Shown piece by piece: positions 11,762-45,693 of a stretch of 64,000 bases of DNA. The notes under the pieces were generated by a model. It worked only from the letters and a program-made list of their open reading frames with translations, did not search any database and was not told the DNA's origin. The DNA is from Clostridia bacterium UC5.1-2E3. Its GTDB lineage: Bacteria; Bacillota; Clostridia; Lachnospirales; Lachnospiraceae. Made by a program: the position numbers and the translations under genes. The DNA lies in the NCBI GenBank assembly GCA_001304875.1, contig BBZO01000010.1, positions 1 to 64,000 on the forward strand. Reading direction: 5' to 3'. Positions within the stretch are counted from its first letter, which is position 1. Each line of letters begins with the position of its first letter.

Positions 11762-14364
11762 ATGGACAATAATAGTTTAGCTCATACAAAATGGGAATGC
11801 AAGTATCACATAGGTGCGACCTGAAGGTCGTTGTTTGAAATGCGTTTCAACGCTATCATATCCATTCGTGATATCCCTACCACGAAATGCCCGGTAAGTG
11901 ATGAAAGGTGTGAAGCAGTGGGACAAAGCGGACAAGCGGTATCCACATCCGCCCAACTGCCAGGGATGGGTGCACAAGGTTAACATATGTGAATCATTAT
12001 AAGGATCGTGATACTTGAAATGGTGAAAGTGGATGATACACCATACCAAAAGGTAAGAGGGCGGGGATATGGCGGTTTCGATGTGCGCTGTATCGAATGG
12101 ACAGAGCACCTCCGGTCTAAAGATGGAACCTAAATGCATCGCAACAGTTCAAACAACGGAACAGGGAAATCCTCTTGCGCTCCCAACGGTAGGTCAATCG
12201 TAAGAAAGATACAATGCGCAGGAGGGAAGGATGCCAGAAGAAGCGAATGTTTCAGTGTAATGCTGAGAATAGGGATTCAAGATTTGTCCCATCCGAAAGG
12301 AAGCTGACGTCTGGCGCGTATCTAATCACAGGAGAGACATGGAATCTATGAATGCACAAAGTTCAATGGCGCGTAATGCGAGGACAATGCAGACGAAAAG
12401 GATAAAGTGGAAAGATATCAACTGGATAATAGCGGAATCCTACGTTAATAGACTACAGGTAAGGATTGTGAAGGCTGTACAGAAAGACAAATGGAGACTG
12501 GTTAAACGTCTCCAAAAGCTGATTACAAATTCTTTTTATGCAAGAGCGATTGCTGTAAAACGAGTGATAACAAACAGAAGGAAAACACACACCGGGAATA
12601 GATAAAGTGGTGTGGGAGACCGATGAAGATAAAAGCAAAGCGATAGAGAAGCTGGACACTTCGAAATATCATGCACAACCGCTAAGAAGAGTCTACATTG
12701 AAAAATACGGAAAAAAAGAAAAACGTCCACTTGGAATTCCAACGATGCAGGATCGGGCTATGCAGGGGCTGATGTTGCTTGCACTTGAGCCGGTCGCAGA
12801 GACAACAGCGGATAGAGTATCCTTTGGTTTTCGGAGAAACCGGAGTGCGCAAGACGCCATGGAATACATTTTTAAGCTACTGGCAAGGAAAACATCACCG
12901 CAGTGGATTCTGGAAGGAGATATAAAAGGGTGTTTTGACCATATCAGTCATGAATGGATGTTAGGAAATATACCTACAGACAAAAGAATCATGAGACAGT
13001 TCCTAAAATGCGGATATGTTGATAGAAGGACGTTGCTCCCGACAGAGGAAGGTAGCCCACAGGGTGGCCTCATCAGTCCAACTTATGCAAATCTGACATT
13101 GGACGGAATGGAGGAGCTTCTTCTCAAGAAATACAGTGCAAGTAGCACAGGATATACACATCCGAATTACAATAAGGAAAAAGTGCATCTATGCCGGTAT
13201 GCGGACGACTTTATCGTGACGGCTAAGAACAGAGAAACACTCTTAGAAATACAGCAGACGATTGAAAAATTCATGGAAGAAAGAGGACTGAAACTGTCGG
13301 ACGAAAAGACTGTCATTACAAACATTAATGACGGGTTTGACTTTCTTGGATGGAACTTTAGAAAATTTAAAGGGAAATTACTAATCCAGCCATCAAGAAA
13401 AATCGAAACAAAAAGTCACAAAAAGTCTCAGCAGAACGGTCAAATACTACCATGAAGCCAGCCAGGAATTATTGATAATAAAGCTCAATCAGATAACAAG
13501 AGGATGGGCGGAGTATCATCACTGTGTCTGCGCAAAGAAAACCTATGCACTCATTGACCACAGGCTGTGGGAAATGCTGTGGAAATGGGCAAAGAGAAGA
13601 CATCCCCGAAAGGGAAAGAAATGGATTAAGAACAGATACTGGCATCCTAAGGGAAATCGGGAGTGGTCATTCAGGACGGATAAAGCAATCCTGTATCAGA
13701 TGATGGACATGCCGATAGTCAGAATCCGGTCACTAGACTTAAAAAAGAACCCATTTCTTGACAGTGAATACTTTGAGCATAGAAGAAAACAACACAAAAA
13801 GGATAAAGAAACAGCTTATCTCTCAAGTACAGCTGCGCTTAGGGGATACTATGCGTTATAGATGCGTGAGCGGAATGCGGTGAAAGCCGCACGTTCCGTT
13901 CTTAGGGGAGGAATGGGTAGTAATGCCTATTCCTTACCCGACTTTTTGCGCCGAAGTATCGCAGACAGGTCATATACAAAGAAATAAAAGCGGATGTAGG
14001 GCAAATATTGGGAACATTATGCAGGAGAAAAGGAATCGAAATTATCGAAGCACAATGCATGCCAGACCACATCCATATGCTGGTACGGATTCCCCCGAAA
14101 TATTCGGTATCAGAAATAGTAGGATATTTAAAAGGGAAATCGAGTCTGATGATCTTTGAAAAGCATGCGAATTTGAAGTATAAATATGGGAACCGCCATT
14201 TTTGGTGCCGGGGATATTACGTGGATACAGTAGGGAAAAATACGGCAGCAATAAAGGCATATATACAAAATCAGATCAAAGAGGATTTAGAATATGATCA
14301 GATGAGTCTGGTAGAGTATATCGACCCGTTTACGGGTGAGCCGGTAAAGAAAAACAAGAAATAA
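11762..14364 (+). CDS. tnpA: IS200-type transposase TnpA, interrupted by a group II intron
   Basis: Exon 1 is 11762-11813 (MDNNSLAHTKWECKYHI plus one base) and exon 2 is 13943-14364. Joining them gives 474 nt, an uninterrupted 157-residue protein that crosses the junction as KYHI-VFAPKYRRQ, the normal family sequence. HUH motif: DHIHMLV. Catalytic tyrosine: in RGYYVDTVGKN. The protein ends PFTGEPVKKNKK. Y1 transposases move single-stranded DNA by peel-and-paste. The transposase can be made only after the intron is spliced. No frameshift is seen in either exon. Confidence 0.9.
12339..13861 (+). CDS. ltrA: Group II intron-encoded reverse transcriptase/maturase (two apparent frameshifts)
   Basis: About 506 residues from ATG 12339 (AGGAGAG upstream). 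Reverse-transcriptase hallmarks: RPLGIPTMQDR, SFGFRRNRSAQDAME, EGSPQGGLISP and the catalytic YADD at about 13198. The maturase (X) region includes IRGWAEYHH-like QITRGWAEYHH. No HNH endonuclease domain is visible at the C-terminus, so retrohoming may rely on nascent strands at replication forks. Frames change near 12580 and 13400. Here the correction needs removal of one A in an A-rich run, the opposite sign from most of the window. Function: aids splicing and mobility of the host intron. Confidence 0.88.
13868..13901 (+). ncRNA. Group II intron domain V
   Basis: A 34-nt hairpin starting GAGCGGAATGCGG, with a GAAA loop and closing CCGCACGTTCCGTTC. Length, the AGC-type catalytic base segment and the tetraloop fit the catalytic core helix of a group II ribozyme. 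Confidence 0.88.
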
Positions 14365-14404
14365 ACCACTTGGAGTGGTAGTAGGAAGTCAAAGCAAACC
14401 AGCA

Positions 14405-14563
14405 AGCCCCATTAGGGCTGCGCCGGAATAAGGAAGCACTGAATAAGCCCTTTAGGGGGCTGCTGTAAATGTGGTGCAGTTGGCAGGCCTCAGTGCGCCT
14501 TCCGGGCGCAAGCAGGTAACAGCCCCTTCTAGGGGCAGAACAAGCCACCCGCTAAGCGGGTGG
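14405..14563 (+). repeat. Row of five hairpins at the IS200 right end
   Basis: Five short, non-overlapping stem-loops follow tnpA: AGCCC/GGGCT (14405-14419), AGCCC/GGGCT (14446-14461), GCGCC/GGCGC (14495-14509), GCCCC/GGGGC (14522-14536) and CCACCCGC/GCGGGTGG (14545-14563). The last is the likely transposase-recognised right-end hairpin. The others may form a structured 3' RNA or terminate read-through. The rest of 14365-14655 has no gene. Confidence 0.65.
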
Positions 14564-14655
14564 TCTTGACTCTTCGCCGGTATCGTTGCAGACTCTATTG
14601 AAAAGCGGGTACAATAAGTCCAGGATGAGTTGCACCGACTAAGGAGCTGATTTGT

Positions 14656-14962
14656 ATGTTGACAAATGAAGTGGTGTTGAAAATTTTCGAGGAGTATTTG
14701 GCGGAAGATCAGGCGTTGGAAGTTGTCCTACCCGCCACGGCCATGCGGTCATGCTATGGGACAGTGCCGGGCAGGATTGGTCCGAGGTGACGTGCTGCCG
14801 ACGCCGGAGGAACTGTTTGACAAGCTGCTGGATGCGGCCACCGGCTACCAGGAGTATCTGATTTTGCGGGAAGATGAGATGGATCTTCTGGATGACGCAG
14901 GTGAGAAAAAAGTAGAACAGCTTCGGCTGAAGTATCTGGCGCGAAGGGAGGCATTGGGATGA
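14656..14962 (+). CDS. Small hypothetical ICE protein
   Basis: A protein of about 102 residues beginning MLTNEVVLKIFEEYLAEDQ, from ATG 14656 with AAGGAG at 14641-14646. Two single-base losses (about 14730 and 14804) separate the start from the C-terminal part TPEELFDKLLDAATGYQEYL. Corrected, it reads as one acidic helical protein. It ends in a 4-base overlap (ATGA) with the next gene, so the two are coupled. Similar small proteins occur in the mobilisation region of clostridial ICEs; no function is known to me. Confidence 0.6.
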
Positions 14963-15249
14963 GGCTTTTATTGAAATTGTTGGCGGCACCTGTTGTGCTG
15001 GCATTGACCTTATTTGTATGGCTCTGCATGGGAGTTCTGTACCTGTCCAGTTTTATGTTGGGGATCGTCAGCACCATTGTGGGCTTGCTGGGGTTGGCAG
15101 TCCTGGTTACATATTCCGTACAAAACGGCGTGATCCTGCTGGTGATCGCTTTTTTGGTCAGCCCGGCAGGCTTACCCATCGCAGCGGTCTGGCTGGTAGG
15201 CAAGGTGCAGGATCTGCGGTATGCGATCCAGGACGCGGTGTACGGCTGA
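14959..15249 (+). CDS. CD1845-family membrane protein
   Basis: A 96-residue, very hydrophobic protein with three predicted membrane segments (residues about 4-28, 30-50 and 56-80), ending GKVQDLRYAIQDAVYG. Resembles the CD1845 family of C. difficile conjugative transposons. It overlaps the upstream stop (ATGA). Presumably a small inner-membrane accessory of transfer; the role is unproven. Confidence 0.75.
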   Translation: MRLLLKLLAAPVVLALTLFVWLCMGVLYLSSFMLGIVSTIVGLLGLAVLVTYSVQNGVILLVIAFLVSPAGLPIAAVWLVGKVQDLRYAIQDAVYG

Positions 15250-15261
15250 ATAAGAATGAAG

Positions 15262-15293
15262 AATTGCCGGGAGTGAGTGCCCGGCAATTTTGA
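15262..15293 (+). terminator. Intrinsic terminator before abiE
   Basis: AATTGCCGGG (15262-15271) pairs perfectly with CCCGGCAATT (15280-15289), followed by TTGAC. It separates the upstream ICE pair from the toxin-antitoxin operon. Confidence 0.7.
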
Positions 15294-15304
15294 CTTACTT
15301 TCAT

Positions 15305-15328
15305 GCTAATTTCGCGTATAATATTAGC
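15305..15328 (+). promoter_or_regulatory. abiE promoter with overlapping operator dyad
   Basis: GCTAAT (15305-15310) and ATTAGC (15323-15328) form an inverted repeat that encloses a perfect TATAAT -10 box (15317-15322). No good -35 is spaced 16-18 bp upstream. In characterised AbiE systems the antitoxin AbiEi binds inverted repeats in its own promoter; this dyad is the obvious candidate site. Confidence 0.65.
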
Positions 15329-15348
15329 ACGAAAGGAAGGTGAAGAAC

Positions 15349-15942
15349 GTGAGCCAATTTCAACAGCTGGACCAGCTGATGGAACGTCAGGATGGGATGC
15401 TGCGCACCGGGCAGGCCCTCGCGGCCGGGATCTCAAAACCTGTTTTTTATCAATTCGTGCAGTCTCGTGGGCTGGAACAGGCGGCGCATGGGATTTATCT
15501 TTCCAAAGATGCCTGGGTGGACGCCATGTATCTGCTGCATCTTCGTTGTCCGCAGGCGGTTTTTTCCCATGAAACGGCGCTGTTTTTCCACGACCTGACC
15601 GACCGGGAGCCGCTTTGCTATTCCATTACGGTCAAGACGGGCTACAATCCGACCCGGCTCAAGGACGAGGGCGTTCAGGTTTTTACCATCAAGGCGGAGC
15701 TGCATGAGGTCGGCCTGACAACCGCGCAGACCCCCTTCGGTCACGATGTGCCGGTCTATGATATGGAACGGACGATCTGCGATGTGTTGCGCAGCCGGAG
15801 CCACATTGAGATGCAGACATTCCAGGACGCTTTGAAAGCGTATGCCCGCCGGAAAGACAAGGACCTGCGGACGCTGGTGCGCTATGCCAAGCTGTTCCGG
15901 GTCGAGAAGATTTTACGCCAGTATTTGGAGGTACTTCTATGA
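15349..15942 (+). CDS. abiEi: AbiEi-family antitoxin (type IV)
   Basis: A 197-residue protein from GTG 15349 (AAAGGAAGG at 15332-15340). An N-terminal winged-helix-like region (MERQDGMLRTGQALAAGISK, GLEQAAHGIYL) is followed by an AbiEi C-terminal segment (YDMERTICDVLRSRS, FQDALKAYARRKDKDL). AbiEi represses the operon and neutralises the toxin without direct binding. It overlaps the toxin start by 4 bases (ATGA). The gene is uninterrupted. Likely function in an ICE: stable maintenance and phage abortive infection. Confidence 0.85.
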   Translation: MSQFQQLDQLMERQDGMLRTGQALAAGISKPVFYQFVQSRGLEQAAHGIYLSKDAWVDAMYLLHLRCPQAVFSHETALFFHDLTDREPLCYSITVKTGYNPTRLKDEGVQVFTIKAELHEVGLTTAQTPFGHDVPVYDMERTICDVLRSRSHIEMQTFQDALKAYARRKDKDLRTLVRYAKLFRVEKILRQYLEVLL

Positions 15943-16784
15943 TAAAGACAGCCAGACAGCTGAAAGATTTGATCCGCAACCTGTCAAAGAAAAGTGCTGC
16001 GGATGCGCAGGTTTTGATGCGCAACTATATGATGGAGCGTTTTCTGGAACGCATTTCTCTCTCGTCATACCGGGACAAATTCATCCTCAAGGGCGGGATG
16101 CTGGTGGCCGCGATGGTCGGTCTGGACGCCCGCTCCACAATGGACCTGGACGCAACGGTCAAGGGAGCCAACGTCAGCATAGAGGATGTGGAGAACATGA
16201 TGGCCGAGATCATCGCTGTTCCCATTGATGACGGCGTTACCTTCCAGGTGAAAAGCATTTCGGAAATCATGGATGAAGCGGAGTATCCCGGCATACGGGT
16301 CACAATGACAACGCTCTTTGACGGGTGCGCACCCGCTGAAAATCGACATTTCAACCGGCGACGCCATCACCCCTAAAGAGGTGCGGTACAGCTTCAAGCT
16401 CATGCTGGAGGACCGCTCCATCGACGTTTGGGCTTATAACCTGGAGACCGTGCTGGCCGAAAAGCTGGAAACTATCATCATCCGGACCACGACCAACACC
16501 CGTATGAGAGATTTTTACGACATCGCCATCCTGCAACAACTCTATGGCAGCACTCTGGACCCGCACGTTCTCTATGACGCGCTGCTGGCGACAGCCCACA
16601 AGCGCGGCACCGAGCGCCATCTGGCCGAGGCCGCCGAAGTCTTTGATGAAGTGGAGAACAGCCCGGTCATGCAGGACCTGTGGGCGGCCTATCAGAAAAG
16701 TTTTCCTATGCGTCCGACCTTGGCTGGGATGCGGTCATGGCTGCGGTCCGTCAGCTGTTCGCTCGTTGCGAGGGCACGGCATGA
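15939..16784 (+). CDS. abiEii: AbiEii/AbiGii-family nucleotidyltransferase toxin
   Basis: About 282 residues after correcting three single-base losses (two near 16323-16335 in GGGG and CCCC runs, one in a T run near 16700). Motifs of the DNA polymerase-beta-like nucleotidyltransferase toxins are present: KGGM near residue 51 and RSTMDLDATV with the catalytic D-x-D, then KIDIST and LAEKLETII. AbiEii-type toxins use nucleotides to block growth during phage infection. It follows the antitoxin with an ATGA overlap, and its own stop overlaps the next gene. Confidence 0.85.
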
Positions 16785-17131
16785 AAAAGCGTGGACACTA
16801 CTGCAAGGTCTGTGGCGAGTATAAGGCAAACGAAAAGTTTTCCGGCAAGGGACACGCCGCGCACATTTGTAAAACCTGCGCCGCTCTCCCGCCAGAAAAG
16901 CAGGCAGAAGAAATGACGCTTACCCGGCTTGTCAACCTTCCCTGGCGATTATCCAAAGAACAACTTTCGTGGCTGAAGAAACGGATGAAGGACAAGCGGG
17001 ATGCCGTGCGAACCCTGGCGACGGAACAATATGAAATTCGGTTCCCGCCCAGGATAGAACTGGATGAATTGGAAGATGACTTTGAAGAAGATTTCGATTT
17101 TTATATGGACGAGGAAACTGATATAGAGTAA
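16781..17131 (+). CDS. Zinc-ribbon protein coupled to abiEii
   Basis: A 116-residue protein starting MKKRGHYCKVCGEYKANEKF, with CxxC at residues 8-11 and a second CKTC pair near 30-33, then a basic middle and a very acidic tail (DELEDDFEEDFDFYMDEE). ATG 16781 overlaps the toxin stop, so it is translated with the toxin. I do not recognise the family. Its consistent coupling suggests either a third component of the AbiE locus or an accessory of the relaxase that follows. Confidence 0.6.
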   Translation: MKKRGHYCKVCGEYKANEKFSGKGHAAHICKTCAALPPEKQAEEMTLTRLVNLPWRLSKEQLSWLKKRMKDKRDAVRTLATEQYEIRFPPRIELDELEDDFEEDFDFYMDEETDIE

Positions 17132-17188
17132 ACCGATGCGGTCTGTGATGAGCAGGCCGCTTATTTTTGGAAAGGAGGCGGACCCCAC

Positions 17189-18600
17189 ATGGCCACCACC
17201 CGCATTATACCGCTGCACGCCGGCAAGGGCCGCACGGTCGGCAAGGCGATCAGCGACATCATCGACTATGTAAAAAATCCAGAAAAGACCGACCACGGTA
17301 GGCTCATCACCAGCTACCAGTGTGACAGCCGCGTGGCCGATGCGCAGTTCCTGCTGGACAAGCAGACCTACGCCGCCCGCACCGGCCGGGTGCGCGGTGC
17401 GGACAATGTGATCGCCTACCACCTGCGGCAGTCCTTTGTGCCGGGCGAGATCACGCCGGAGGAAGCAAACCGCCTGGGCGTGGAGCTGGCCCGGCGCTTC
17501 ACCAAGGGCAAGCACGCTTTCATCGTCTGTACCCACATCGACAAGGCTCACGTCCACAACCATATTATATGGAACTCCACCACGCTGGAGTGTGACCGCA
17601 AGTTCCGCAACTTTTGGGGCAGCACCCGCGCTGTCCACCGTCTGAGCGATACCATCTGCATCGAAAACGGCTACTCCATTGTGGAGGCTCCAAAGCGGCG
17701 CGGCCAGAGCTACAACAAGTGGCTGGGCGATGCGGCAAAGCCTCCCACAAAGAGCAGCTGCGCCAGGCTATTGACCGGGCGCTGGCACAGAAACCGGCCA
17801 GCCTGGAGGAGTTGCTGCGCCTGTTGGAGCAGGACGGCTTTACCGTTCACCGGCGTGGAAAAACCATCTCCATCGGCGCGGAGGGCTGGGGCAACAACGT
17901 CCGCTTTGACCGGCTGGGTGACGGCTACACGCTGGACGATCTGCTGGCGGTCCTCTCCGGCCAGAAAGAGCATACGCCCCGCAAGCAAGCCGTCCCGCAG
18001 GCCGCTCCGTCCAAGGTCAATCTGCTGGTGGACATCCAGGCAAAACTCCAGGCCAGGAAAGGTGCCGGGTACGTCCGCTGGGCCAAGGTGTTCAACCTCA
18101 AGCAGATAGCACAGACCCTCAACTACCTGTCTGAACACGGGCTGCTGGATTATGCCGATCTGGAAGCAAAAACAGCAGAGGCGACGGCCCGTTACAATGC
18201 GCTGTCCGATCAGATCAAGGCCGCCGAGAAGCGCATGGCCGAGATTGCCGTGCTGCGCACCCACATCGTCAACTACGCCAAGACCCGCGAGACCTATGTA
18301 GCCTATCGCAAGGCTGGATATTCAAAGAAATTCCGGCAGGAGCATGAGGAGGAAATCTTGCTGCACCAGGCGGCCAAGGAAGCCTTCAACGAGCTGAATG
18401 TGAAGAAGCTGGCCACCATCAAGGAGCTTCAGACCGAGTACGCCCAGCTGCTGGCGGACAAGAAAAAGGCTTATGGAGAGTACCGGCAGGCCCGCGCCGC
18501 CATGCGGGAGCTGCTGACGGTCAAGAACAATGTGGATCGGGTCCTGGCGATGGAGCAGACCGAACCGCAACAGAAAGAAAAAGACCACGGCCAGCGGTGA
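17189..18600 (+). CDS. Relaxase (mobilisation nuclease), MobP-like
   Basis: About 470 residues from ATG 17189 (GGAAAGGAGG upstream). The N-terminal catalytic domain shows a Tyr-bearing segment (IIDYVKNPEKT) and the metal-binding HIDKAHVHNHI triad characteristic of relaxase motif III. The C-terminal part is a long helical region ending in a Lys/Glu-rich tail. One C lost near 17743 (AAGCCTCC) accounts for the single frame change. It nicks oriT and pilots the strand during transfer. It belongs with mobC, from which the IS200/intron, small genes and AbiE now separate it. Confidence 0.9.
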
Positions 18601-19144: not shown

Positions 19145-19473
19145 AATCGTTCACCTCAATGATATTTTATCGTGCCGATTAGAATCAAGGAATAACATGA
19201 TTATATCTATTAAAAGAGATGATTGTGCTGTTTTGATAGGGGCAAAAGAGGCGTTATGCTTGTAATGACTATTTATAGCTTGTATAATTAATGATGAAAA
19301 GACACAGTTCTGCAGTGTTGTTTGGAAATAGAAACTACCCGTCACGGGTAGGGCGGGGAAAAAAAGTTTGTACTATCCTAAAAAGGAAACGTGTTTGGGG
19401 AAACTGAGCACAGAGGTTCTTGGAAGCCTCTGGCTTTATGCGATACAGCTAAAATATGAAGGGGGATGAACCT
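19145..19473. other. Intergenic region between XRE gene and solute-binding protein
   Basis: 329 bases, AT-rich, without a gene. It holds the dyad at 19335-19351 and the -10 box of the rightward operon. The left half must contain the XRE promoter, but I see no clear consensus. Confidence 0.5.
19335..19376 (+). promoter_or_regulatory. Activator-type promoter with CTACCC-N5-GGGTAG dyad (copy 1)
   Basis: CTACCC (19335-19340) and GGGTAG (19346-19351) form a dyad, followed by GGCG, and a TACTAT -10 lies at 19371-19376. Its -35 position (19348-19353) has no consensus and is covered by the dyad, whose centre is about 40 bp upstream of the expected start. A near-identical arrangement recurs at 27488. 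Both fit binding by a LuxR/NarL-type activator. Confidence 0.6.
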
Positions 19474-20831
19474 ATGAAACAAAGGAAGCTCATTATTTTA
19501 TTGACTGCAGTGGCATTGTTCTGTACAGGCTGTTCCGGCACGGCAAAAAAAGAAGAGACGCCAACCACTATTACGGTCTGGCACGTCTATGGCGGTCAGA
19601 CAGATTCCCCACTCAACGACCTCATCGATGCGTTCAACCAGACGGTGGGAAAGGAGCAGCGGATCAACGTGCGGGTCACCTCCGTGTCCAACACCAACAC
19701 CATCCACGAGCTGGTGCTGGCCGCCGCCAACGGAGAGCCGGGCGCCTCGGAGCTGCCCGACCTCTTCATCTCCTATCCCAAGACGGTGATGGCCCTGCCC
19801 GACGACAGCATTTTGGTGGACTACCGGGACTATTTCAGCCAGGAGGAGCTGTCCGCCTTCCTCCCAGCCTTTCTGGAGGAGGGGACGGTCAATGACCGTC
19901 TGGTGGTGCTGCCGGTGGCCAAATCCACAGAGATCATGTTCATCAACCAGACCATCTTCGACCGCTTCTCCCAGGCTACCGGTGTAACGATCGAGGATCT
20001 GGATACATGGGAGGGGCTTTACAGGGCTGCGGAGATCTACGCGGACTGGACCGACGACCAGACGCCGGATATTCCGGGGGATGCCAAGTCCATGTTCGTT
20101 CACGACTACTACTTCAACTACTTCCAGGTAGGAGCCCAGTCCCTGGGCGAGGACTTCTTCCGGGGGGATGTGCTGGCCTTCGGCCCCGCCTTCCAGACGG
20201 CGTGGGAACCCTGGCCCGGGCCCCTGCGGGCGGCGTCTGGCTCAAGCGGGTACGCCACCGAGTCTATCCGCACCGGCGACAGCATCGTCAGCGTGGCCTC
20301 CTCTGCCAGCATCCTCTATTACAGCGATGTGGTGACCTATCCGGACAACACCTCTGAGGACATCACCATCATCTCCCGGCCCTGCCCGGTGTTTGAAAAC
20401 GGAGAAAAGCTGGTGATGCAGCGGGGCGCGGGCTTCTGTACCGTCCGCTCCACCCCGGAGCGGGAGCGGGCCGCGGTGACCTTCCTCAAATGGCTCACCG
20501 AGCCGGAGCACAATGTGGAGTTTGTGACCCGGACAGGCTACATGCCGGTGACCCAGGCTGCATTTGAAACGGAGCTGCCAAAGGCCATTGAAGGCTGGAG
20601 AGCGCCAAATATGCCTCTCTCTATCAGGCCTATCTGGATACCCAGCAAAACTATAAATTCTATGTGCCGCCCCAGTTGGAGAGCTACCTGAGCCTGGAAA
20701 CCACGCTGGAGGACCATGTGCGGGCCCAGCTGGCCCTGGGCCGCCGGGATTATCTGGAGGCCGGAGAGACCGGGCTGGAGCAGATCAGTGCGGACCGGCT
20801 CCAGTCCTTCCGGGAGATCATGGAGCGATAA
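19474..20831 (+). CDS. Extracellular solute-binding lipoprotein (ABC transporter type)
   Basis: About 452 residues from ATG 19474 (GGGGGATGA upstream). Lipoprotein signal with lipobox CTGC (MKQRKLIILLTAVALFCTGC), then TITVWHVYGGQTDSPLNDLI, typical of sugar-type SBP_bac families. Frame irregularities lie near 20210-20255 (compensating) and 20597 (one base lost; the C-terminus continues as KYASLYQAYLDTQQNYKF). No permease or ATPase genes accompany it. It is directly followed by a membrane-tethered regulator, so it may act as a ligand receptor for that sensor rather than in uptake; this is inference. Confidence 0.8.
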
Positions 20832-20854
20832 CCTGTAAGAGAGGAGGAACCACC

Positions 20855-22447
20855 GTGCGCAACAGACTGAAAGAACTCCGGGCGTTGAACGCCTTTGCCA
20901 AAAAGCAGAGCGTAGGGATGCAGCGAAAGCTGATGCTCTACTGGGTGTCCATGATCCTGGTGGTCTTCGCGGCGGTGATCCTTCTGCTGTCCATCGCTGG
21001 GGCCTTCTCCCGGGATGATGAGCAGTTCCATGAGGTAATGGAGCTCCACCTGAGCAACACAGGAGATACGCTGGCCAGCCAACTGGACCATCTGACCGCC
21101 CAGAGCCTAAATCTCTCCAAGGAGCTCAGCCGGGAGATCGAGGGGGCGCTGGTACAGGAGGGCATTTCGCTGCAGGAGGTCAACGATGATCCGGAGCGGC
21201 TGCTGAAACTGCAGCAGATCATGTACCCGCTGGTCAATACCACCCTCCAGACCGCCAACTGCAACGGAGCTTATGTAATTTTGAATGCCACGGCCAATAC
21301 CACCCTGGAGGTGGCAGATCACTCCAGAAGCGGGCTCTACCTGCGTTACACCAACCTCAGCGCCAGTAATCCGGTAGCCCCTACCGTGGTCTACTTCCGC
21401 GGCATTCCGGATATTGCCCGGCAAAAGGATCTGGAGTTGCACAATCGATGGAATCTGGAATTTGACACCGATCAGATCCCGGGCTGCCGGGAGCTGATGG
21501 ATGCGCCGCTGAGCCGGCCTGCCGACCGCTACTTCTGGTCCCGCCGGATCGATCTAAAGGATACCTGGGAATCCGCTATGCTGCTGTGTGTCCCCATTGT
21601 GGGGAGCGACGGAACGGTGTACGGCGTGTGCGGGGTAGAGCTCAGCGCCCTGTATTTCCAGTTTTCCTATCCCACCCTGGAGGGAAAGTTCGGCTCCGCC
21701 GTCACCGTGCTGGCTCCGGTCCAGGACAGCCGTCTGCTGCTGCCGGATGGATTGGTGGGCAGCGTCAACGGCACCTACCTGGACGGTCAGGAGACTCTGG
21801 CCATCCATCAGGGGCGATACTATAACGAATACGACACAGGAACCGAACGTTATATCGGTCTGCACCAAACTTTACCTGTCTCTAAAGGGGAAATAGAGGA
21901 TACCGTTTGGGCCGTCGCCATCCTGATTCCCCAGGAGAGCTATGCCGCCTACACAGCCGGTGTCCAGCAGACCTGGATCATTGCAGCTTTTGGATTGCTT
22001 CTGACATTATTGACTCTGTCCTTCTTCCTGTCCCGGCGATTTGTCCGGCCCATCACCGACAGTCTGAAACGGTTCCAGCAGGCGGAGGGGCCGGAACAGG
22101 GGATGTCCTCGGGCATCTCGGAGCTGGATGAGCTGGCGGAGTTCCTCAATGCCCGGGCGTGGAATCAGCGGCTGGAGCAGGGAGAGCTTCCTCCCAACAT
22201 TGCGGAACTGTTCGACCAGTTTGTGGAGCGGAAGGATCTGCTGACCGAGGCGGAGCGGAATATCCTGCGCTACTACATCGACGGGCACGAGATCGCGGAC
22301 ATCCCGGACCTGGCCTTTATCAGCATGAGTACGGTCCGCAAGCACAACCGGAGCATCTACGAGAAACTGGGGGTGGCCTCCCGGGATGAGCTGATGCTCT
22401 ACATCGATCTGCTCCGCCGCTGCGGAAGGCTTCAGGAACTTTTCTAA
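20855..22447 (+). CDS. Membrane-tethered LuxR-type regulator with extracytoplasmic sensor domain
   Basis: 530 residues, intact, GTG start at 20855 after AGAGAGGAGG. A first membrane segment (residues about 28-50) is followed by a ~290-residue extracellular region that looks like a dCache sensor, and a second membrane segment near residues 367-390 (TWIIAAFGLLLTLLTLSFFL). A HAMP-like stretch, FVRPITDSLKRF, and a C-terminal LuxR/NarL HTH (LTEAERNILRYYIDGHEIAD, STVRKHNRSIYEKLG) complete it. It has no kinase or receiver domain: signal input and DNA binding are in one polypeptide. Likely ligand partner: the upstream lipoprotein, 23 bp away. It may bind the 19335 and 27488 dyads. Confidence 0.85.
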   Translation: MRNRLKELRALNAFAKKQSVGMQRKLMLYWVSMILVVFAAVILLLSIAGAFSRDDEQFHEVMELHLSNTGDTLASQLDHLTAQSLNLSKELSREIEGALVQEGISLQEVNDDPERLLKLQQIMYPLVNTTLQTANCNGAYVILNATANTTLEVADHSRSGLYLRYTNLSASNPVAPTVVYFRGIPDIARQKDLELHNRWNLEFDTDQIPGCRELMDAPLSRPADRYFWSRRIDLKDTWESAMLLCVPIVGSDGTVYGVCGVELSALYFQFSYPTLEGKFGSAVTVLAPVQDSRLLLPDGLVGSVNGTYLDGQETLAIHQGRYYNEYDTGTERYIGLHQTLPVSKGEIEDTVWAVAILIPQESYAAYTAGVQQTWIIAAFGLLLTLLTLSFFLSRRFVRPITDSLKRFQQAEGPEQGMSSGISELDELAEFLNARAWNQRLEQGELPPNIAELFDQFVERKDLLTEAERNILRYYIDGHEIADIPDLAFISMSTVRKHNRSIYEKLGVASRDELMLYIDLLRRCGRLQELF

Positions 22448-22617: not shown

Positions 22618-22971
22618 ATGTTCGATTTGTTGTGTAGTCATCTGGAAGATCAATCCACCCCTGAGTATTTCTGCTTTTCTATTCGTTGTGAGGTATGCGG
22701 TGAATTTTGGTACAGTAGCAGTATACCTTTTTCTAAAGTATCACAGGCGAAGGAGAATCGAGAGAAAAAGGAACTCTATGATGCCATTTACCAACGCGAG
22801 AAACAGCGGGCCAGACGAGCCGCAGGACAAGAGGCCAGAGAGAGATTCAGCCAATGTCCCATTTGCCGACGTTTGGTCTGCGATTCCTGCTTCCTTATCT
22901 GCGATGAAATGGATCTGTGTCGGGAATGTGCTGGACGGATGAAAGAGTGTGGAGAGCCGGTGGCGCTATGA
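22618..22971 (+). CDS. Small cysteine-rich protein heading the sensor operon
   Basis: 117 residues from ATG 22618 with a good AGAGGAGG site. Cysteines occur in three clusters: CEVCGEF near residue 24, CPICRRLVCDSC near 79-90 and CRECAGRMKEC near 101-111, suggesting zinc binding by one or two ribbons. A highly charged helix (residues 45-75) lies between them. Not recognised. The stop overlaps the next start (ATGA), so it is translationally coupled to the sensor. Intact. Confidence 0.65.
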   Translation: MFDLLCSHLEDQSTPEYFCFSIRCEVCGEFWYSSSIPFSKVSQAKENREKKELYDAIYQREKQRARRAAGQEARERFSQCPICRRLVCDSCFLICDEMDLCRECAGRMKECGEPVAL

Positions 22972-25385
22972 AACTTCGATGGCTTCTAATCCTTCTTCTG
23001 TGTTTGCTGGTTACAGGATGCAGTGCATCGACCTCCGGGAGCAGTTTGATTTCCGGAGCGGAGGGAACTGGCGTATATAGCGCAGTTCTCTCGCCTTTTC
23101 TTCCTGACTACTTACTTCAGACGCAGGAGGACACCCTCTATGCAGAGGTAAGCCGTGGCAACGTCGTGGCCTGCTTCGATGTGCAGGCTATCCCCGCCAT
23201 AGAACGGGGTGTTGGACGGTATTGGTATCCTCATGTTTCAACTGCTGTGGTACTGGCAGTGGATCGCACCCGGACGGATGCGGTCATTACCGGCTGGAAT
23301 AGCCTTTGGAAGAGCCCAGATCCTGTCGCTATAAGCGGTACAACCGTGATTCGCAATATGCTGGCCTTGGGGGCACTGTCTTACGGACTGAATCCAGAAG
23401 AACCTCAAAGCGGGATGCCTTGGAGTTGTTGGAACATCTCAGTCAGAATGGGAAATTTAAGTTGGATGCACCGGATGCCCCTATTCTGCTTTGCCTGGAC
23501 TACGAGGTTGCTGCGTGGAACCGAAATGGTGCCAATTATGAAATCATCGTGCCGGTGGAAGGAACGCTGGCCTTTCGTATGGGACTGCTCTCTGATGTTC
23601 CTCTGACTTTGGAATCCGGACTGGATGAAGCCCTGTTATCTGCGGGTTTATCCCTGGCGAATGGAGAGAGAGCCCGGTATTTCCCGGAGGATTACCAGGC
23701 AGTCCGCCTGTTGAATGAGGATGATTACGACTGGTTTCTGGAACTTACAGGAGACAGCAGTCGGGATTTGCGCAGGCAGGTACTTCATACCCGGCGCTAC
23801 ACCACAGCAGATCTCCGGGAACATATCTTATCTGTCCTGCTCATTGCCGTTGCCATTCTGTTGTGGAAGGGGACGGTATCCCACCGGATGATCCGCCGTG
23901 ATGTTCGTTGGGGTGTCGACACCATGGGGTGGTTGATGGTGTGCTGGCTGATGCTTCGCCTGTTTAAGTATCAGCTGACATCGGAGAGGCTTCTGTGTCG
24001 GATGTGCTGGTATGGTTATTACATCTTTCAGCTGGCTTTGCCGATCATCCTTTTGTATCTGACTGTTCTCTTGGATCATGAAGAGGGAGAAATACGATTA
24101 CTGTACCTATATGGCCGCCATTGGCTTGCTATGCCTTTTCAGTTCTGCTGGTACTGACCAATGATTTCCATCAGCTGGTATTTCGCTTCGACCCGGAAGG
24201 AAACTGGTCTCATGATTACTGCTACGGTCCGGGATATTGGATCGTGATGACTGCATCCCTCCTGTTCCTGGCAGCCGCAGTATGGAAGCTGCTTCGCAGG
24301 GGACGACGAAACTCTTTCTGGATTGGAAGAATGTTACCTTTGTTGTTTTGTGCGGGGCTTCTGGCTTACATTGCTGCTTACATCAAGCGAGTGCCTCTGG
24401 CTTGGGAGAGTGACCTTACAGTCAACATCTGTGTACTGTCTGCCCTGTTTTTCGAGACGGCACTTTACGCAGGTTTGATTCCGGTCAATCTTCAATATCA
24501 GCGTTTGTTCGCTGCTGCGCCCATTGGATTTACCCTGTTGGATGAGAATGGCCGCACCGTTTTATCCTCCAAAGGTGCGCCCCCAGTTTCCCACTCCATC
24601 TGGAAACGGCTGCATATGGATATGGAACATCCGCTGCTGAGGGACAACGATACCCAGCTTCATGCAGTCCCTATCCATGGTGGTATGGCGGTGTGGCAGG
24701 AAAACCTCTCTCAGATTAACCGGTTAAGGAGGGACATCCAGGATGTACAAACCCGTTTGAAAGCGGCCAATACGTTGCTGCGAGAAGAAGAAGAGGTAAA
24801 AAACGATTGGTGGCCGTGGAAACAAACAAAAACCTGTTTGAACAGCTGGATCGTGATATGGAGCGCCGTATCCGAACACTGGAACATTTGATTGAGACTT
24901 TCCCAGGAACAGAACATCCTCATGAACGGACTGCCTGCATTACCCTTTGCCTATGCCATATCAAACGCAGATGCAACATGTTTTTCCTGGCCCGCCAGGG
25001 GGAAGGATTGTCTGGAGACGAACTGAGCATGTATTTAGACGAACTGGCAGAACTGGCTCGCTATGCTGGGCTCCAAATGCTGATCCGCTGTGGACAAAGC
25101 GGTGTATTGGAGGTTCGCCGTGCAGCGCTCTGCTACGACTTTGCCTTTGAAACCATATCATGGGCGTTGCGGGAGAATGCCTCCCCTCTGTTGGGATATC
25201 TGGAATCAGAGGGTGCCCATCTGGTATTTCGTTTTCTTCCGGGCAGTGATCCCGGACAATGGAATTTCTCAGAGGAACTGACGACGGCAGCAGATGCGTT
25301 GGGCGGACAGATTATCTGCAAGGACCTGGACGATGCCGTTGGGATTTGTATGACAGTACCGTTGGGAGGTGATGTTCATGTCTGA
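22968..25385 (+). CDS. Membrane sensor resembling a degenerate histidine kinase (three apparent frameshifts)
   Basis: About 806 residues. Lipobox-like N-terminus (LLILLLCLLVTGC), a ~290-residue exported domain, about seven membrane segments (23820-24490), then a cytosolic coiled coil and a kinase-like C-terminus. Characteristic ACITLCLCHIKRRCNMFFLA replaces the usual H-box, and the ATP-binding N-box appears degenerate (CYDFAFETISWALREN). Single-base losses near 23403, 24113 and 24803 each move the frame by the same step. The reading frame ends overlapping the next gene, a complete histidine kinase. I infer a pseudokinase sensor that modulates its neighbour. Confidence 0.7.
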
Positions 25386-26808
25386 GTTTTACCGGTATCC
25401 TAATTGGGGAGTGACTGCATTGGTAATGGTAACTGCCCTGTGTATCGTGCTGCAGACCAGGGCGATTTCTTACAGTATCCGCCGCCTGCGGACCGGCTGG
25501 GTGCGCAGAGTGGAAAATGGAATGGAGTGTGTTATCCTAGCAGTATTGTTACTGTTTGCTGCGCTTCTGGCACAAGTGCAATATGGACTGTTCTGCGGCT
25601 TTTTGATACCTAGCTCTTACGATTTTGCACGGCAGGCAGTATTTTTACTGGCAGCAGTATTGGGAACCACCGCAGCTGTGGGAACGGAGCTTAGCTGGCC
25701 ATTTTTTGCCGTCGGTGCAGCGGCGGTTCTGCTCCCCTTAGCGGAGAAGATCACAGGGGCTGCATATCCATTCTTTTTCTGGCAAGTATGTTGTTCTTTC
25801 TGATTCGTAGTATACACATTTGCCTGCTGCGCCGACACGAGCTCTATACCAGATTTCTTCTATATCTGTGAAAGAGGCTATTGATACTTTGCATACCGGG
25901 CTGCTGTTCTTTCGCCCGGAGGGGGATATTCTGTTATGTAATCGCCAGATGGATGGATTGGCTCGCCAGGTGATGGGACATTCTCTGCAAAACGGAAGGG
26001 TTTTTCAGAAGCTTTTGGAAGATGGCCCCCTGTGTAAAGACTGCATAAGGGAGACTTTGGGAAATCAGCAGGTATTTCGTCTTCCTGATCGCTCTGTTTG
26101 GAGTTTTTCTGTTCATGAAATCTCCATGGGATGTCGGACAACGGTTTTGTTAATTGCCAATGATGTTACGCAGCGGTGGGATGCAGTGCTTCTCCTTGCC
26201 CAGCAAAACGAGGCGCTGGAACAGCGCGGACAGGAACTTCGCAGCGCCATCGAGAATCTTCAGACAATTTGTGAAGCGGAGGAGATTGCCCGAAGCAAGG
26301 GTAGGGTTCATGACCTTTTAGGGCAGCGTATCAGCCTGCTGCTTCGGGCACTTCGAGACAACCAGCAGCCAAATGAAACCCTTTTAATGGAGTTTGCCCA
26401 CAATCTTGCAACAGCGCTCCGTGAGGATCAGACGCCGGATCCAGCTCAACGTCTGAATCTTCTGAAGGAAATTTTTCAGAGTATGAAAGTATATGTGGAA
26501 ATTCGGGGAGCACTGCCGGAGGATCAGGCAGTGGCAGACAGCTTTGCGGAGATTGCGTCAGAGTGTGTCACCAATGCTGTTCGCCACGGGTATGCCACTC
26601 GTATTCAGTTCCACTTCTTTCAGAATGATTGTTGGCGTATGACAGTCACGGACAACGGCATTCCCCCGGTCGGCCGATTCGTGAGGGCGGTGGTATTGGC
26701 GGGATGCGCCGGAGGATTCAGCGGCTTGGCGGTACATTGAAGCTCTATATTGTCCCTAGATTTCGGATAGAACTATCTGTTCCGAAGGAGGTTGTGAAAA
26801 ATGATTAA
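25378..26808 (+). CDS. Sensor histidine kinase, HisKA_3/NarL type (three apparent frameshifts)
   Basis: About 477 residues from ATG 25378 (GGGAGGTG upstream), overlapping the previous stop. Six membrane segments in the first 145 residues, a PAS-like domain (LHTGLLFFRPEGDILLCNRQ), a HisKA_3 dimerisation motif with the phospho-acceptor in RVHDLLGQRIS, and an ATPase with N-box ECVTNAVRHG and G-box DNGIPP. After correction of a base lost near 26665 the C-terminus includes EGGGIGGMRRRIQ and ends at TAA 26806-26808, overlapping the response regulator by 8 bases. Two other losses are near 25783 and 25854. Confidence 0.85.
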
Positions 26809-27418
26809 AGTTCTGATCGTGGAGGATCATGCATCTATGAGAGAATCGCTGACAACGGCGCTGGTGGCTGCTGGAGATTTTTCCGTGGTAGGAGAAGTTC
26901 CCAATGCTGATTATGCCCTTGATTTCTGTAAGCACCTGCATCCGGATCTGGTATTGATGGATGTCTGCACCGAGGGCGGCGCTTCTGGATTGAAAGCAGT
27001 GGAGGCGATCCGAAAAACATATTCGGAGATTAAAATTATTGTCATGACTGCCTTTGATGAGATTACTTACATTCCAAGGTCTAAGGCTGCCGGAGCCAAT
27101 GGATTTATCTATAAGAGCCGAAGCCTGCATGATTTTCTGGAAGTAGCCCGGAAGGTGATGGAGGGAGGCAGCAGTTTTCCTGAGCCAAAGACGATCCCCA
27201 TGCCTCAGGGAGAGGCTCCTCTGACTGACCGCGAAATGGAAATACTCCGGTTGATGTGCAGGCATATGACAAACAAGGAGATTGCCCGGGAATTGTATAT
27301 CAGCGAAAATACAGTCAAGTATCACAAGACAAATATGCTTGGAAAAACCGGATTTTCCAAGGCAATCGATCTGGCCTTTTACATGATTTCCAACGGCTGG
27401 ATCAATCCGTTATATTAA
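26801..27418 (+). CDS. NarL/FixJ-family response regulator
   Basis: 205 residues, intact. Receiver domain with acidic pocket (IVEDH), phospho-acceptor Asp in DLVLMDV, Thr/Ser switch in VMTAFDE and Lys in IYKSRS. C-terminal LuxR HTH: LTDREMEILRLMCRHMTNKE, ISENTVKYHKTNML. Its start overlaps the kinase stop, so it is the cognate partner. It is a candidate to bind the dyad at 27488, about 70 bp after its stop. Confidence 0.92.
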   Translation: MIKVLIVEDHASMRESLTTALVAAGDFSVVGEVPNADYALDFCKHLHPDLVLMDVCTEGGASGLKAVEAIRKTYSEIKIIVMTAFDEITYIPRSKAAGANGFIYKSRSLHDFLEVARKVMEGGSSFPEPKTIPMPQGEAPLTDREMEILRLMCRHMTNKEIARELYISENTVKYHKTNMLGKTGFSKAIDLAFYMISNGWINPLY

Positions 27419-27487: not shown

Positions 27488-27532
27488 CTACCCACTGCGG
27501 GTAGGGCGCAGATTAGAAATAAGCTTTACAAT
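27488..27532 (+). promoter_or_regulatory. Activator-type promoter with CTACCC-N5-GGGTAG dyad (copy 2)
   Basis: CTACCC (27488-27493) and GGGTAG (27499-27504), followed by GGCG, repeat the dyad at 19335; only the central bases differ. A TACAAT -10 box lies at 27527-27532, and the -35 position (27504-27509) has no consensus and overlaps the dyad. It drives the receiver-like gene and probably the envelope cluster. Confidence 0.62.
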
Positions 27533-27562
27533 AAAAATGTAATGAAGGAAGGTGCGAGGGAG

Positions 27563-27949
27563 GTGAATGGACTGAAAACAGTGCTTTTAATCATGCAGCG
27601 GGCATCGTTGGCACAGGGGTTGATGGCGAAAATGCGAGATGTCCCCGATATCCAGCTGTGCTACGAGCCGGACTATGCCAATGCGGATGCAGCCATTCGT
27701 ACCCATTTGGCTTCCGGAGCATTGCTGGAAGTTTCCGAGAATGATATCTATGGCATCGATTTTTGCTTGGATTTATGTACATGGCTGCGGAAAGTTACAC
27801 CTCATTGCCGTCTTATGCTGATGTGCTCAGAGAGGCAGATAGATGCTGTCAGCAGTGCCATTCAGGCAAAGAGAAAGGGCGAAATTGATGATTTTGTGTT
27901 TTATGATGTGTCCTTAGACTATCTGGCTGCCAGCTTGCGATCATTATGA
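27563..27949 (+). CDS. Receiver-like protein without output domain (paralogue of 42005)
   Basis: About 128 residues. Secondary-structure pattern of a response-regulator receiver (KTVLLIMQRASLAQGLMAK at the start), but the phospho-acceptor position reads ALLEVSEND, with no Asp in the expected place, and there is no DNA-binding domain. The ending IDDFVFYDVSLDYLAASLRS matches the protein at 42005. Start uncertain: GTG 27563, or CTG 27572 with the GGGAGGTG site at better spacing. Likely a phosphorylation-independent partner or decoy; function inferred only. Confidence 0.6.
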   Translation: MNGLKTVLLIMQRASLAQGLMAKMRDVPDIQLCYEPDYANADAAIRTHLASGALLEVSENDIYGIDFCLDLCTWLRKVTPHCRLMLMCSERQIDAVSSAIQAKRKGEIDDFVFYDVSLDYLAASLRSL

Positions 27950-29409: not shown

Positions 29410-30738
29410 ATGGGACTGATCAAAGCTGCATTTGGAGCTGCCGGCGGCATTATGGCTGAGCAGTGGAAGGAATACTTCTATTGTGAAGCGATCCCTGCCG
29501 ATGTACTGGCAGTAAAAGGGAAAAAGAAGGTTACGGGTCGTTCCAGCAACACCAAGGGGGATGATAACATCATTACCAACGGCTCTGTCATTGCCGTGGC
29601 AGACGGCCAATGTATGCTCATTGTAGAGCAGGGTAAAGTGGTGGATGTTTGCGCTGAGCCGGGAGAATATACTTACGATATGTCTACAGAGCCAGCATAT
29701 TCTCAGGTAATTTGGGGGAATCCATCAAGGGCGTGTTCCAGAATATCGGAAAGCGATTTACCTTCGGCGGCGAAGCCCCAAGGATCAGCGTGTCTACTAT
29801 TTTAACACCAAGGAGATTACCGGAAACAAGTATGGAACCCCAAGCCCCGTTCCCTTCCGGGTGGTGGATCAGCGGGCAGGTATTGACATGGATATTGCTA
29901 TCCGCTGTTTCGGTGAGTACAGTATCAGCCTGAAAAACCCTCTGTTGTTCTATACGAATGTCTGCGGCAATATCAGCGAGGATTATAGAACGGAGCAGCT
30001 CGCCGGGCAGATGAAGACGGAACTTTTGACAGCTCTTCAACCTGCTTTCGCTAAGATCTCGGAAATGGGCATCCGATACTCTGCCCTCCCCGGCCATACG
30101 CTGGAACTGGCCGAGGCTCTGAACGAACAGCTTTCATCCAGATGGCGTGACCTGCGAGGCATGGAGATTGTGTCCTTCGGTGTTTCCAGTGTCAAGGCCA
30201 ACGAGGAAGACGAGCAGATGATTAAGGATATGCAGCGTAATGCGGCCTTTATGGATCCTACCCGGGCAGCGGCTCATCTGGTGGGCGCACAGGCCAGCGC
30301 CATGCAGTCTGCGGCCAGCAACCCGAACGCAGGTCCTGCTATGGCTTTTATGGGAATGGGGATGGCCGGACAGATGGGCGGCATGAATGCCCAGAACCTC
30401 TATCAAATGGGTGCACAGCAACAGGCTCAACCTGCATCTTCTGAGGCTCCTGCGTCTGTTGCTTCCGGCGGCTGGATCTGCTCCTGCGGACAAAGAGGTA
30501 TTATTGGAAAATTCTGCCGGAGTGCGGCAAGCCCAAACCTGCTTCGGACGGCTGGATTTGTTCCTGCGGCGCGGTAAACAAGGGGAAATTCTGCCCGGAG
30601 TGCGGGGCGAAAAAGCCTGCCGGCGTGCCCCAGTACAAATGCGACAAATGCGGCTGGGAACCGGATGATCCCGCTCATCCGCCCAAGTTCTGCCCGGAGT
30701 GCGGCGATCCCTTTGACGATGGCGATGTGCAGGAATGA
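29410..30738 (+). CDS. SPFH-domain protein with C-terminal zinc ribbons (YdjI-like)
   Basis: About 443 residues from ATG 29410 (AGAGGAGA upstream). The N-terminal MGLIKAAFGAAGGIMAEQWK and an SPFH/Band-7 core match the 'virion core protein'-like group that includes B. subtilis YdjI. A Met/Gly/Gln-rich linker (MGMGMAGQMGG) leads to three zinc ribbons with paired CxCG/CPECG motifs. Frame changes near 29705, 29780 and 30515 are single-base losses. In B. subtilis YdjI works with YdjG and YdjH to recruit PspA to stressed membrane; homologues of those two occur at 37658 and 38810 here, but no PspA is in the window. The stop overlaps the next gene. Confidence 0.85.
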
Positions 30739-42004: not shown

Positions 42005-42381
42005 ATGAAAACAGTTCTATTTATATCATCCAATAAGATGCTCGGGCAGGGACTATCGACGGCCATTCAATCAAAACTGGAATTTGACTTTCTGTGGGCA
42101 ACACAGCTCCATTATTCACAGGCTATTGTGGGAGTTAATATTTTCCATACCGATGTGGTGATATTGGATATTGTGGATCAGGAAGATATGGGGCAGTCAG
42201 TTAAAATCTGCCAATCCATTCGGCAGGAGAGGCAGGATATAAAGATTCTTCTTCTGGTCAGGCCGGAACAGTCTACTGTATGCAGTCAGGTCGTAGAAAC
42301 AAAAAATGCCGGTTTGATTGATGATTTTGTTTTTATGATAGTTCCTTAAACTATCTACTTGCAAAATTGGAGGCATTGTAA
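42005..42381 (+). CDS. Receiver-like protein, paralogue of 27563
   Basis: About 125 residues from ATG 42005 (AGAGAGGGC upstream). Receiver-type fold with an Asp in DVVILDIVD, but no C-terminal DNA-binding domain. A T lost from the run near 42336 causes an early stop; restored, the end reads IDDFVFYDSSLNYLLAKLEA, closely matching the protein at 27563. The two lie at opposite ends of the lipoprotein cluster. Confidence 0.65.
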
Positions 42382-45658: not shown

Positions 45659-45693
45659 TCAATATTATGCAATCACGAAGGGAGGCGCCTTTT

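Follow-up and report, generated by a model that had tools for sequence, protein, structure and literature searches.

A predicted solute-binding lipoprotein (hereafter SBP) and a membrane-tethered LuxR-type regulator (hereafter REG) are encoded next to each other in the first 64,000 nucleotides of contig BBZO01000010.1 (positions 1-64,000) of Clostridia bacterium UC5.1-2E3 (GCA_001304875.1), a stretch to which we refer as the window. We consider it quite likely that the two proteins form a binding-protein-gated, one-component transmembrane switch. This reading is built on the pair and its linkage in relatives, the computed fold of the sensor domain, the recurrence of that sensor, again preceded by an SBP gene, in proteins with kinase or GGDEF outputs, and a DNA site for one recognition-helix class of REG. 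SBP (19474..20598, + strand) lies directly upstream of REG (20855..22447, +; 530 amino acids), on the same strand and separated by a short gap, and each occurs as a single copy in the genome, which is 86.7% complete.

SBP, recognized by open reading frame (ORF) calling and Pfam, carries the marks of an extracellular solute-binding protein of the SBP_bac_8/SBP_bac_1 type. It scores above the cut-off for SBP_bac_8 (PF13416; E = 1e-21, 78.4 bits, cut-off 27, covering 2-270 of 279) as well as for SBP_bac_1 (PF01547; 32.6 bits, cut-off 26), and its N-terminus (...ALFCTGCSG) is of the lipoprotein type when read by eye with the lipobox rule. The ligand is probably a sugar-like or other small polar solute, judging from the SBP family. 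Among solved structures, those closest to it belong to transport SBPs, e.g., the glycerol-3-phosphate-binding protein 9lff (E = 1.6e-7). The ORF runs from 19456/19474 to 20691 (+), the latter not being its natural end: the conserved C-terminus of about 75 amino acids shifts frame from around 20598 and resumes in another frame at 20601-20831. A stretch near 20227-20245 is also unlike that of relatives.

For REG, Pfam, helix prediction and a fold model give the following domain order: a first transmembrane (TM) helix (TM1; amino acids 33-51), a double-Cache ectodomain (approximately 49-369), a second helix (TM2; 375-393), a HAMP-like linker (by eye) and, at the C-terminus, a LuxR/GerE-type helix-turn-helix (HTH; 462-516). 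The GerE HTH (PF00196; 38.4 bits, cut-off 23.5) is the sole Pfam match, and Pfam detects no kinase domain in REG. Because positive charge precedes the first of the two hydrophobic helices and follows the second, the roughly 320 amino acids between them are expected outside the cell. The first-pass annotation had described a binding protein followed by a kinase-free one-component LuxR regulator with an external sensor and two TM helices, a description that the Pfam, helix and charge data uphold.

The AlphaFold model of REG (15-row alignment; mean pLDDT 73) places a long helix and a mixed alpha/beta region between the TM helices. The best PDB matches of the ectodomain in Foldseek are ligand-binding domains of chemoreceptors. 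In VIA-align, residues 53-369 superpose on Tlp1 (4wy9) with a Z-score of 17.6 and a root-mean-square deviation of 3.7 over 254 residues, and the 50 matches listed, mostly dCache sensors, have Z-scores of 13.9-17.6. The periplasmic domain of LuxQ (3c30) is also among the Foldseek matches (E = 6.7e-3). From the model, the part flanked by the two TM helices is thus predicted to adopt a double-Cache fold. At the sequence level, no Pfam Cache family matches REG or any of 82 relatives, and dCache_1 appears weakly, below cut-off, in four out of nine longer sensor relatives scanned. Similarly, Pfam HAMP gives no match in REG (E ≤ 0.1) nor in the 82 relatives (E ≤ 0.001). The HAMP-like reading of the linker is based on helices at 360-409 and 422-433 and on a PI..L and E.DEL pattern seen by eye, in a region of low model confidence. 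REG was also considered as a quorum-sensing LuxR receptor and rejected as such: neither REG nor the 82 relatives show a Pfam match for an autoinducer-binding domain, and the ectodomain is dCache-like.

REG relatives are spread beyond the family of the window's genome. Within the family, 118 of 397 genomes contain some match at E ≤ 0.001, many of them to the HTH or the sensor only, and 18 near full-length loci were taken; at E ≤ 1e-15, matches occur in 35 of 391 genomes sampled by class and 23 of 398 sampled by phylum (the window's genome being counted in each). Another 16 loci come from named genome records. Linkage was counted on loci from the best matches, i.e., 82 with a LuxR output and 11 longer ones, with not all weak matches taken and the copies of the own genome (L001, L068) omitted. 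The 82 relatives correspond to 80 clusters at 95% identity and 66 at 80%, and all except one match GerE, the exception likely being L008, which is cut before the HTH. Of the 82 loci, 74 have a homologue of SBP ahead of REG in the same orientation, with a gap below 200 bp in 73; the remaining one, L116, has a gap of 563 bp and a REG gene split over two frames. Since the sequence ends 0-147 bp upstream of REG in six of the eight loci lacking SBP, the pair is linked in 74 of 76 informative loci. The first-pass annotation had proposed such a neighbourhood survey, and its outcome supports the pairing. A conserved pair of SBP and sensor genes, a hallmark of three-component systems, is therefore present at these 74 loci. 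Another hallmark, a histidine kinase with a response regulator, is absent from REG; a kinase is found in three of the 11 longer relatives.

These 11 longer proteins with the REG sensor (L036-L046), which come from the same-family search, are all preceded by SBP. Three are of the kinase type (L036 and L037, read in their long versions L066 and L067, plus L038) and contain HisKA, HATPase and receiver domains, and eight are of the GGDEF type (L039-L046), five of them with an additional EAL domain and all with SBP upstream. Because the DNA-binding, kinase and GGDEF versions all follow SBP, a single SBP-sensor unit appears to serve three outputs. In its own right, L039-L046 constitutes an SBP-linked cyclic-di-GMP branch of the REG sensor family. 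Further membrane LuxR proteins are encoded near the pair in two loci, namely an 11-helix protein with a GerE HTH (L057:12313-13785) and a HisKA_7TM-GerE fusion (L048:1982-2944).

Import permeases are scarce around the pair. In 54 neighbourhoods, BPD_transp_1 matches two of 63 ORFs with at least four predicted membrane helices, and both matches belong to a separate cluster in L056 that has its own SBP-like and regulator genes. In the window's genome, none of the 32 BPD_transp_1 matches is located on the window's contig (98.6 kb), so SBP lacks the neighbouring permease expected of the SBP of an ATP-binding cassette (ABC) importer. An ABC importer operon, with permeases near one of 54 neighbourhoods and none on the contig, was accordingly rejected. 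These counts agree with the earlier statement that transporter genes are absent nearby; pairing with transporters in relatives, named beforehand as one observation that would overturn the first-pass reading, is not what the survey returned. SBP could instead be an orphan that serves an importer encoded elsewhere, its place beside REG reflecting no more than co-regulation of uptake. Orphan SBPs sharing distant permeases are known, all 32 permease matches of the genome are on other contigs, and the nearest solved relatives are transport proteins. Yet such an orphan would not be expected to stand before REG so regularly (74 of 76 loci), to precede the same sensor on other outputs (11 out of 11) and to have import permeases near only one of 54 neighbourhoods, and we regard this explanation as very unlikely.

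In the switch that we propose, the lipoprotein SBP would be anchored outside the membrane, bind its ligand and dock onto the double-Cache ectodomain of REG. The signal would then cross the two TM helices and the HAMP-like linker and, at the inner face of the membrane, alter how the LuxR/GerE DNA-binding domains pair. A REG dimer would thereupon bind a dyad some 42 bp ahead of the start site and activate transcription. No kinase or phosphotransfer would take part. Ligand binding, contact between SBP and REG, activation and DNA binding from the membrane are inferred steps of this model. Several observations weigh against the switch. The structure model of SBP is poor (pLDDT 52). In L048, an unrelated, surface-protein-like ORF (by eye; L048:6749-7777) takes the place of SBP before REG. 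In L087/L148, SBP is absent and the first 50 residues of REG are unmatched.

The strongest support found for a membrane-held REG acting on DNA comes from a sequence motif. Upstream of SBP, deep relatives carry a 19-bp dyad, AATCACCC-N3-GGGTGATT. It was counted with a fixed rule (TCACCC-N3-GGGTGA with at most one mismatch, and TANNNT at centre +29 to +31) in 54 neighbourhoods (L002-L017, L048-L065 and L143-L162, with L066 and L067 omitted); of the 48 class and phylum loci, 20 had been extended. Helix classes were labelled by script, except that L154 was set as KTH by eye (KTHS) and the truncated L008 was placed among the others. The rule is satisfied in 15 of 22 neighbourhoods in which the REG recognition helix reads KTH(N/T/S) and in none of the 32 with other helices; as the dyad was first noticed in those same loci, the 15 of 22 is a descriptive count. 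The 15 loci represent seven families (f10, f25, f26, f33, f44, f51 and f106). Markov-shuffled sequences yield no hit in 1,080, and 31 when two mismatches are allowed. A homologue of the response regulator encoded downstream of the pair in the window (see below) is absent at E < 1e-20 from all 22 KTH neighbourhoods, with a weaker match to a receiver protein in L153 (2.7e-6). At the genome scale, 15 perfect dyads with TANNNT at the fixed distance are found in 10 of 13 KTH genomes, at one to three per genome, and none in 10 other genomes; 10 of the 15 adjoin an SBP-REG pair. TCACCC-N3-GGGTGA is therefore likely the operator of REG in the KTH class, as far as the distribution of sites can tell. 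If the -10 hexamer is set at -12 to -7 (the start site being predicted), the centre of the dyad falls near -42, the position of a class II activator.

The genes at the dyad promoter are partly recurrent. In L149-L152 and L154-L156, the promoter precedes a membrane protein resembling DUF4870 or a lipoprotein resembling DUF6591, or the two together, read by eye except in L152, where Pfam gives DUF4870 below cut-off (E = 0.0018) and DUF6591 above it (35.1 bits). Family f106 has other genes at this place. Among the five dyads distant from the pair, three (in G549, G478 and G451) precede related proteins of about 300 amino acids, and two of these three sites have DUF4870-like and lipoprotein-like genes on the opposite side (by eye). 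In L157-L161, additional direct half-sites of the GGGTGATTTT type are seen by eye after the dyad, upstream of SBP; their presence suggests that more than one REG dimer may bind there.

A number of points count against the operator assignment. Five of the 15 dyad loci belong to one family, and seven of the 22 KTH loci break the rule: the dyad of L145 lies at a contig end, L060 has a variant dyad, L146 has no upstream DNA, L153 has a perfect dyad with the -10 at 33 bp, and L057, L144 and L162 have no dyad. The genome-wide scan also returns eight one-mismatch matches, some plainly due to chance, and a backward-pattern control gives three matches in 23 genomes. Each of the 13 loci read in which the -10 is placed at 30-31 bp has this element facing away from SBP, and therefore autoregulation by REG does not follow. 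For the helix class of the window (RKHN), no REG site was found. We judge it somewhat better than an even bet that the pair represents a phylum-wide class, in which SBP would be the ligand sensor, the dCache receptor would relay the signal, a membrane-held LuxR dimer would bind its own dyad near -42 of a tiny regulon (TCACCC-N3-GGGTGA in one subclass), and the SBP-sensor unit would be swapped among DNA-binding, kinase and GGDEF outputs.

The window has a dyad of its own. A dyad search identified motif A, the perfect dyad CTACCCGT-C-ACGGGTAG at 19335..19351 (+), whose centre lies 31 bp before the first base of a -10-like hexamer, TATCCT, of the SBP-REG promoter (19374..19379, +; TATACT in several relatives). 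A second, looser site is present at 27488..27504 (+), before a receiver-like gene. With up to three mismatches, the window contains two motif A sites where 0.13 are expected, and across the whole genome (3.46 Mb) the pattern CTAYCCR-N3-YGGRTAG occurs nowhere but at these two places, with no match for the control. In the genomes of 10 relatives, the pattern yields 19 sites in eight genomes, with two control matches and none in the two group-B genomes. TANNNT is found exactly 22 bp downstream of all 22 motif A sites, which stem from 11 closely related group-A sequences, and at none on the other strand; a stricter later scan recovers fewer group-A sites than these 22. Palindromes upstream of SBP in the other loci of the same family show no common pattern beyond L050, the sites of L052 and L053 coming from separate comparisons.

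This dyad is probably the site of a neighbouring NarL-type response regulator (hereafter RR; receiver and GerE HTH; 26801..27418, +; recognition helix ISENTVKYHKTNMLGKTG) and not of REG, because the type of site tracks the RR helix rather than the REG helix. RR helices of the KYH/KWH type go with TACCC-type sites (group A, L050, L052 and L053), and those of the KNH type with an unrelated block, AGATCTTTYGRTTCATG (group B, i.e., L011, L013 and L017, and L049). The REG helix of L049 is nearly that of group A, yet its site is AGATCTTTYGRTTCATG; that of L053 (EKYN) is very different, yet its site is of the TACCC type; and L051 has the REG helix of L052, with no RR found and no site. The block AGATCTTTYGRTTCATG occurs genome-wide as one mismatch-free copy in each of the three genomes of this kind that were searched (G191, G1167 and G1168), along with two one-mismatch matches, one of them in the window's genome. 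Alternatively, REG itself binds the dyads at 19335 and 27488 and autoregulates the operon, to which we would grant a modest minority share. The 19335 site stands directly before SBP-REG, and the distance between the -10 and its proximal GGG is constant across the TACCC and TCACCC sites, as if one factor had evolved through all three types: with a gap of 5, the centre lies 31.0 bp from the -10, with a gap of 4 it lies 30.5 bp away, and with a gap of 3, 30.0 bp. The contrasts of L049, L053 and L051 go against REG helices as the determinant; in L048, a KNH regulator comes with neither site type, and the whole comparison rests on few lineages. With RR as the favoured binder, the reporter assay that the first-pass annotation had proposed for REG at the 19335 promoter, where the dyad is real, would probably address the wrong promoter.

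RR belongs to a second sensory system directly downstream of the pair (22618-27418), which the first-pass annotation had not mentioned. It starts with a Cys-rich, zinc-ribbon-like protein of 117 amino acids (22618..22971, +), a recurrent third neighbour of the pair that is found in 23 of 54 neighbourhoods when searched with the copy of L050 (phmmer E < 1e-6). A HisKA_7TM membrane protein (22962..25385, +) and a HATPase-type kinase (25369..26740, +) follow, both frame-broken in the window; L002 has intact versions of 823 and 479 amino acids, respectively. The homologue of the HisKA_7TM protein in L053 also matches SBP_bac_6; a fusion of a binding domain to a 7TM sensor would be unusual. The first gene after the second dyad encodes a small receiver-like protein (27542..27949, +; by eye, no Pfam match), with homologues in L052, in L053 and in six out of 10 loci of group A, in many cases immediately downstream of a motif A site. 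It is one of two receiver-like proteins without an output domain in the window, the other being at 42005-42349 (both by eye).

Further downstream on the + strand are genes for SPFH/Band_7_1 (approximately 29410-30577), DUF4428 (32173-32679), AIM24 (33153-33512), a zinc-ribbon-like protein with a homologue in L156 (37927-38790) and a TPM/YdjH-like protein (38810-40123), recognized by eye and lacking a Pfam match, with several frames broken in the window between 29410 and 40123. Across the 54 neighbourhoods, phmmer finds SPFH in nine, AIM24 in six, DUF4428 in five and a TFIIB-like zinc-ribbon protein in four. Going by neighbourhood alone, an envelope-related response downstream of the pair is possible. 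The pspA-ydjGHI proteins of Bacillus subtilis act at the membrane under stress (PMC8581546) and resemble this region in that SPFH and, by eye, YdjG/YdjH-like proteins are neighbours of the pair in a number of lineages, that of the window among them; they differ in that no PspA was noticed, none having been searched for, and that gene neighbourhood is all that ties them to REG. The terms LuxR and AIM24 are absent from the main text of a survey of the phage shock protein (PSP) response (PMC11237479). One could imagine that SBP has lost ligand binding and is an inhibitory or structural cap by which REG reports envelope stress, with AIM24, SPFH and zinc-ribbon neighbours as the response. The genes at 29-40 kb of the window would suit this, as would AIM24 in six and SPFH in four of 18 same-family neighbourhoods, DUF4428 in four of six group-B loci and the stress role of pspA-ydjGHI. 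We hold it to be quite unlikely, given that AIM24, SPFH, DUF4428 or the TFIIB-like protein appear in only one (L156) of 20 deep neighbourhoods and that the SBP_bac_8 match of SBP is near full length.

The broken frames also bear on the state of the pair. Compared with L002, the block in the window shows 16 gaps, all frame-changing: three in SBP, none in REG, seven in 22618-27418 and six between or after genes. Of the 10 that fall in SBP or 22618-27418, eight consist of one missing base each, their contexts containing homopolymers of only 2-4, and long intact ORFs exist for the frame-broken genes in L002 and others; either sequencing error or decay may be the cause. The pair in this genome could be a decaying passenger of a mobile region. 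This fits the gaps in SBP and the second system, the relaxase-like gene to the left (NF040665; E 7e-25, below cut-off) and the reverse-transcriptase-like genes there (by eye), and the spread of REG, since group-A versions with 78-90% identity occur in records that bear names including Flavonifractor, Mediterraneibacter and Anaerotignum, with identity reaching 43% at most in the other 396 genomes sampled from the family of the window's genome. Since REG is unbroken over 1.59 kb, the single missing bases could also be produced by sequencing error, and tblastn against plasmids and phages gives no hit (an origin in either being rejected on the same ground), we consider a decaying passenger unlikely. 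The mobile-element-like genes left of the pair lie at 12607-18600, with partly broken frames, and include IS200-like genes (by eye) besides the relaxase-like and reverse-transcriptase-like ones. The window also contains a translation-factor GTPase akin to ribosomal protection proteins (by eye), in two reading frames, at 45667-48452.

If the proposed switch is true, SBP-dependent sensing needs no kinase, and one membrane protein would be receptor and transcription factor at once. The KTH class would be well suited to studying how a LuxR protein held in the membrane locates DNA, as perfect sites number only one to three in 10 of the 13 genomes examined, including one next to the gene. With one SBP-sensor unit on three outputs, ligand sensing could be studied apart from the output, and in the window two easily confused LuxR-family regulators are told apart. 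In the literature searched, which covered few subscription journals, no description of a pair of SBP and membrane LuxR protein was found.

Several known systems share part of this design. ToxR and CadC are membrane-integrated one-component regulators with a winged-helix DNA-binding domain and one TM helix. Like REG, they join an outside sensor and an inside DNA-binding domain in a single chain; REG differs from them by its second TM helix, its dCache ectodomain, its LuxR HTH and its SBP partner. Members of the NarL/GerE family such as VraR and GerE share with REG the GerE HTH and dyad operators (likely ones in the case of REG), whereas REG lacks a receiver domain and is anchored in the membrane. 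In Vibrio cholerae, the periplasmic binding protein NspS works with the membrane GGDEF/EAL protein MbaA, by description much like the eight GGDEF-type relatives, REG differing by its DNA-binding output. LuxP is the SBP partner of LuxQ, and in XylFII-LytS, as cited in PMC10384115, a binding protein likewise works with the ectodomain of a membrane sensor; both are like the proposed SBP-REG switch in this respect, and their output is a kinase. The closest parallel is CuaD-CuaS-CuaR of Ruminiclostridium cellulolyticum (PMC10384115). There, CuaD, which is distinct from the transport SBP, binds the ectodomain of CuaS in a two-hybrid assay, and CuaS has two TM helices, an ectodomain (construct of 267 residues) and a HAMP domain, with a lipoprotein SBP encoded adjacent. 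Up to the inner membrane face, REG resembles CuaS, and both have a lipoprotein SBP gene beside a two-TM sensor. Beyond it the systems part: CuaS is a histidine kinase paired with a response regulator of the YesN/AraC type, and it acts on a cluster of transporter genes close by, whereas REG bears its own DNA-binding domain and no import permease lies near SBP-REG. The first-pass annotation had presented a dedicated binding-protein receptor as new; that part does not stand, as CuaD-CuaS and other three-component systems are published SBP-sensor pairs (PMC10384115), and the novelty that remains is the direct DNA-binding output. SBP-REG is thus best seen as a kinase-free variant of SBP-dependent sensing, with direct DNA-binding output as its new element.

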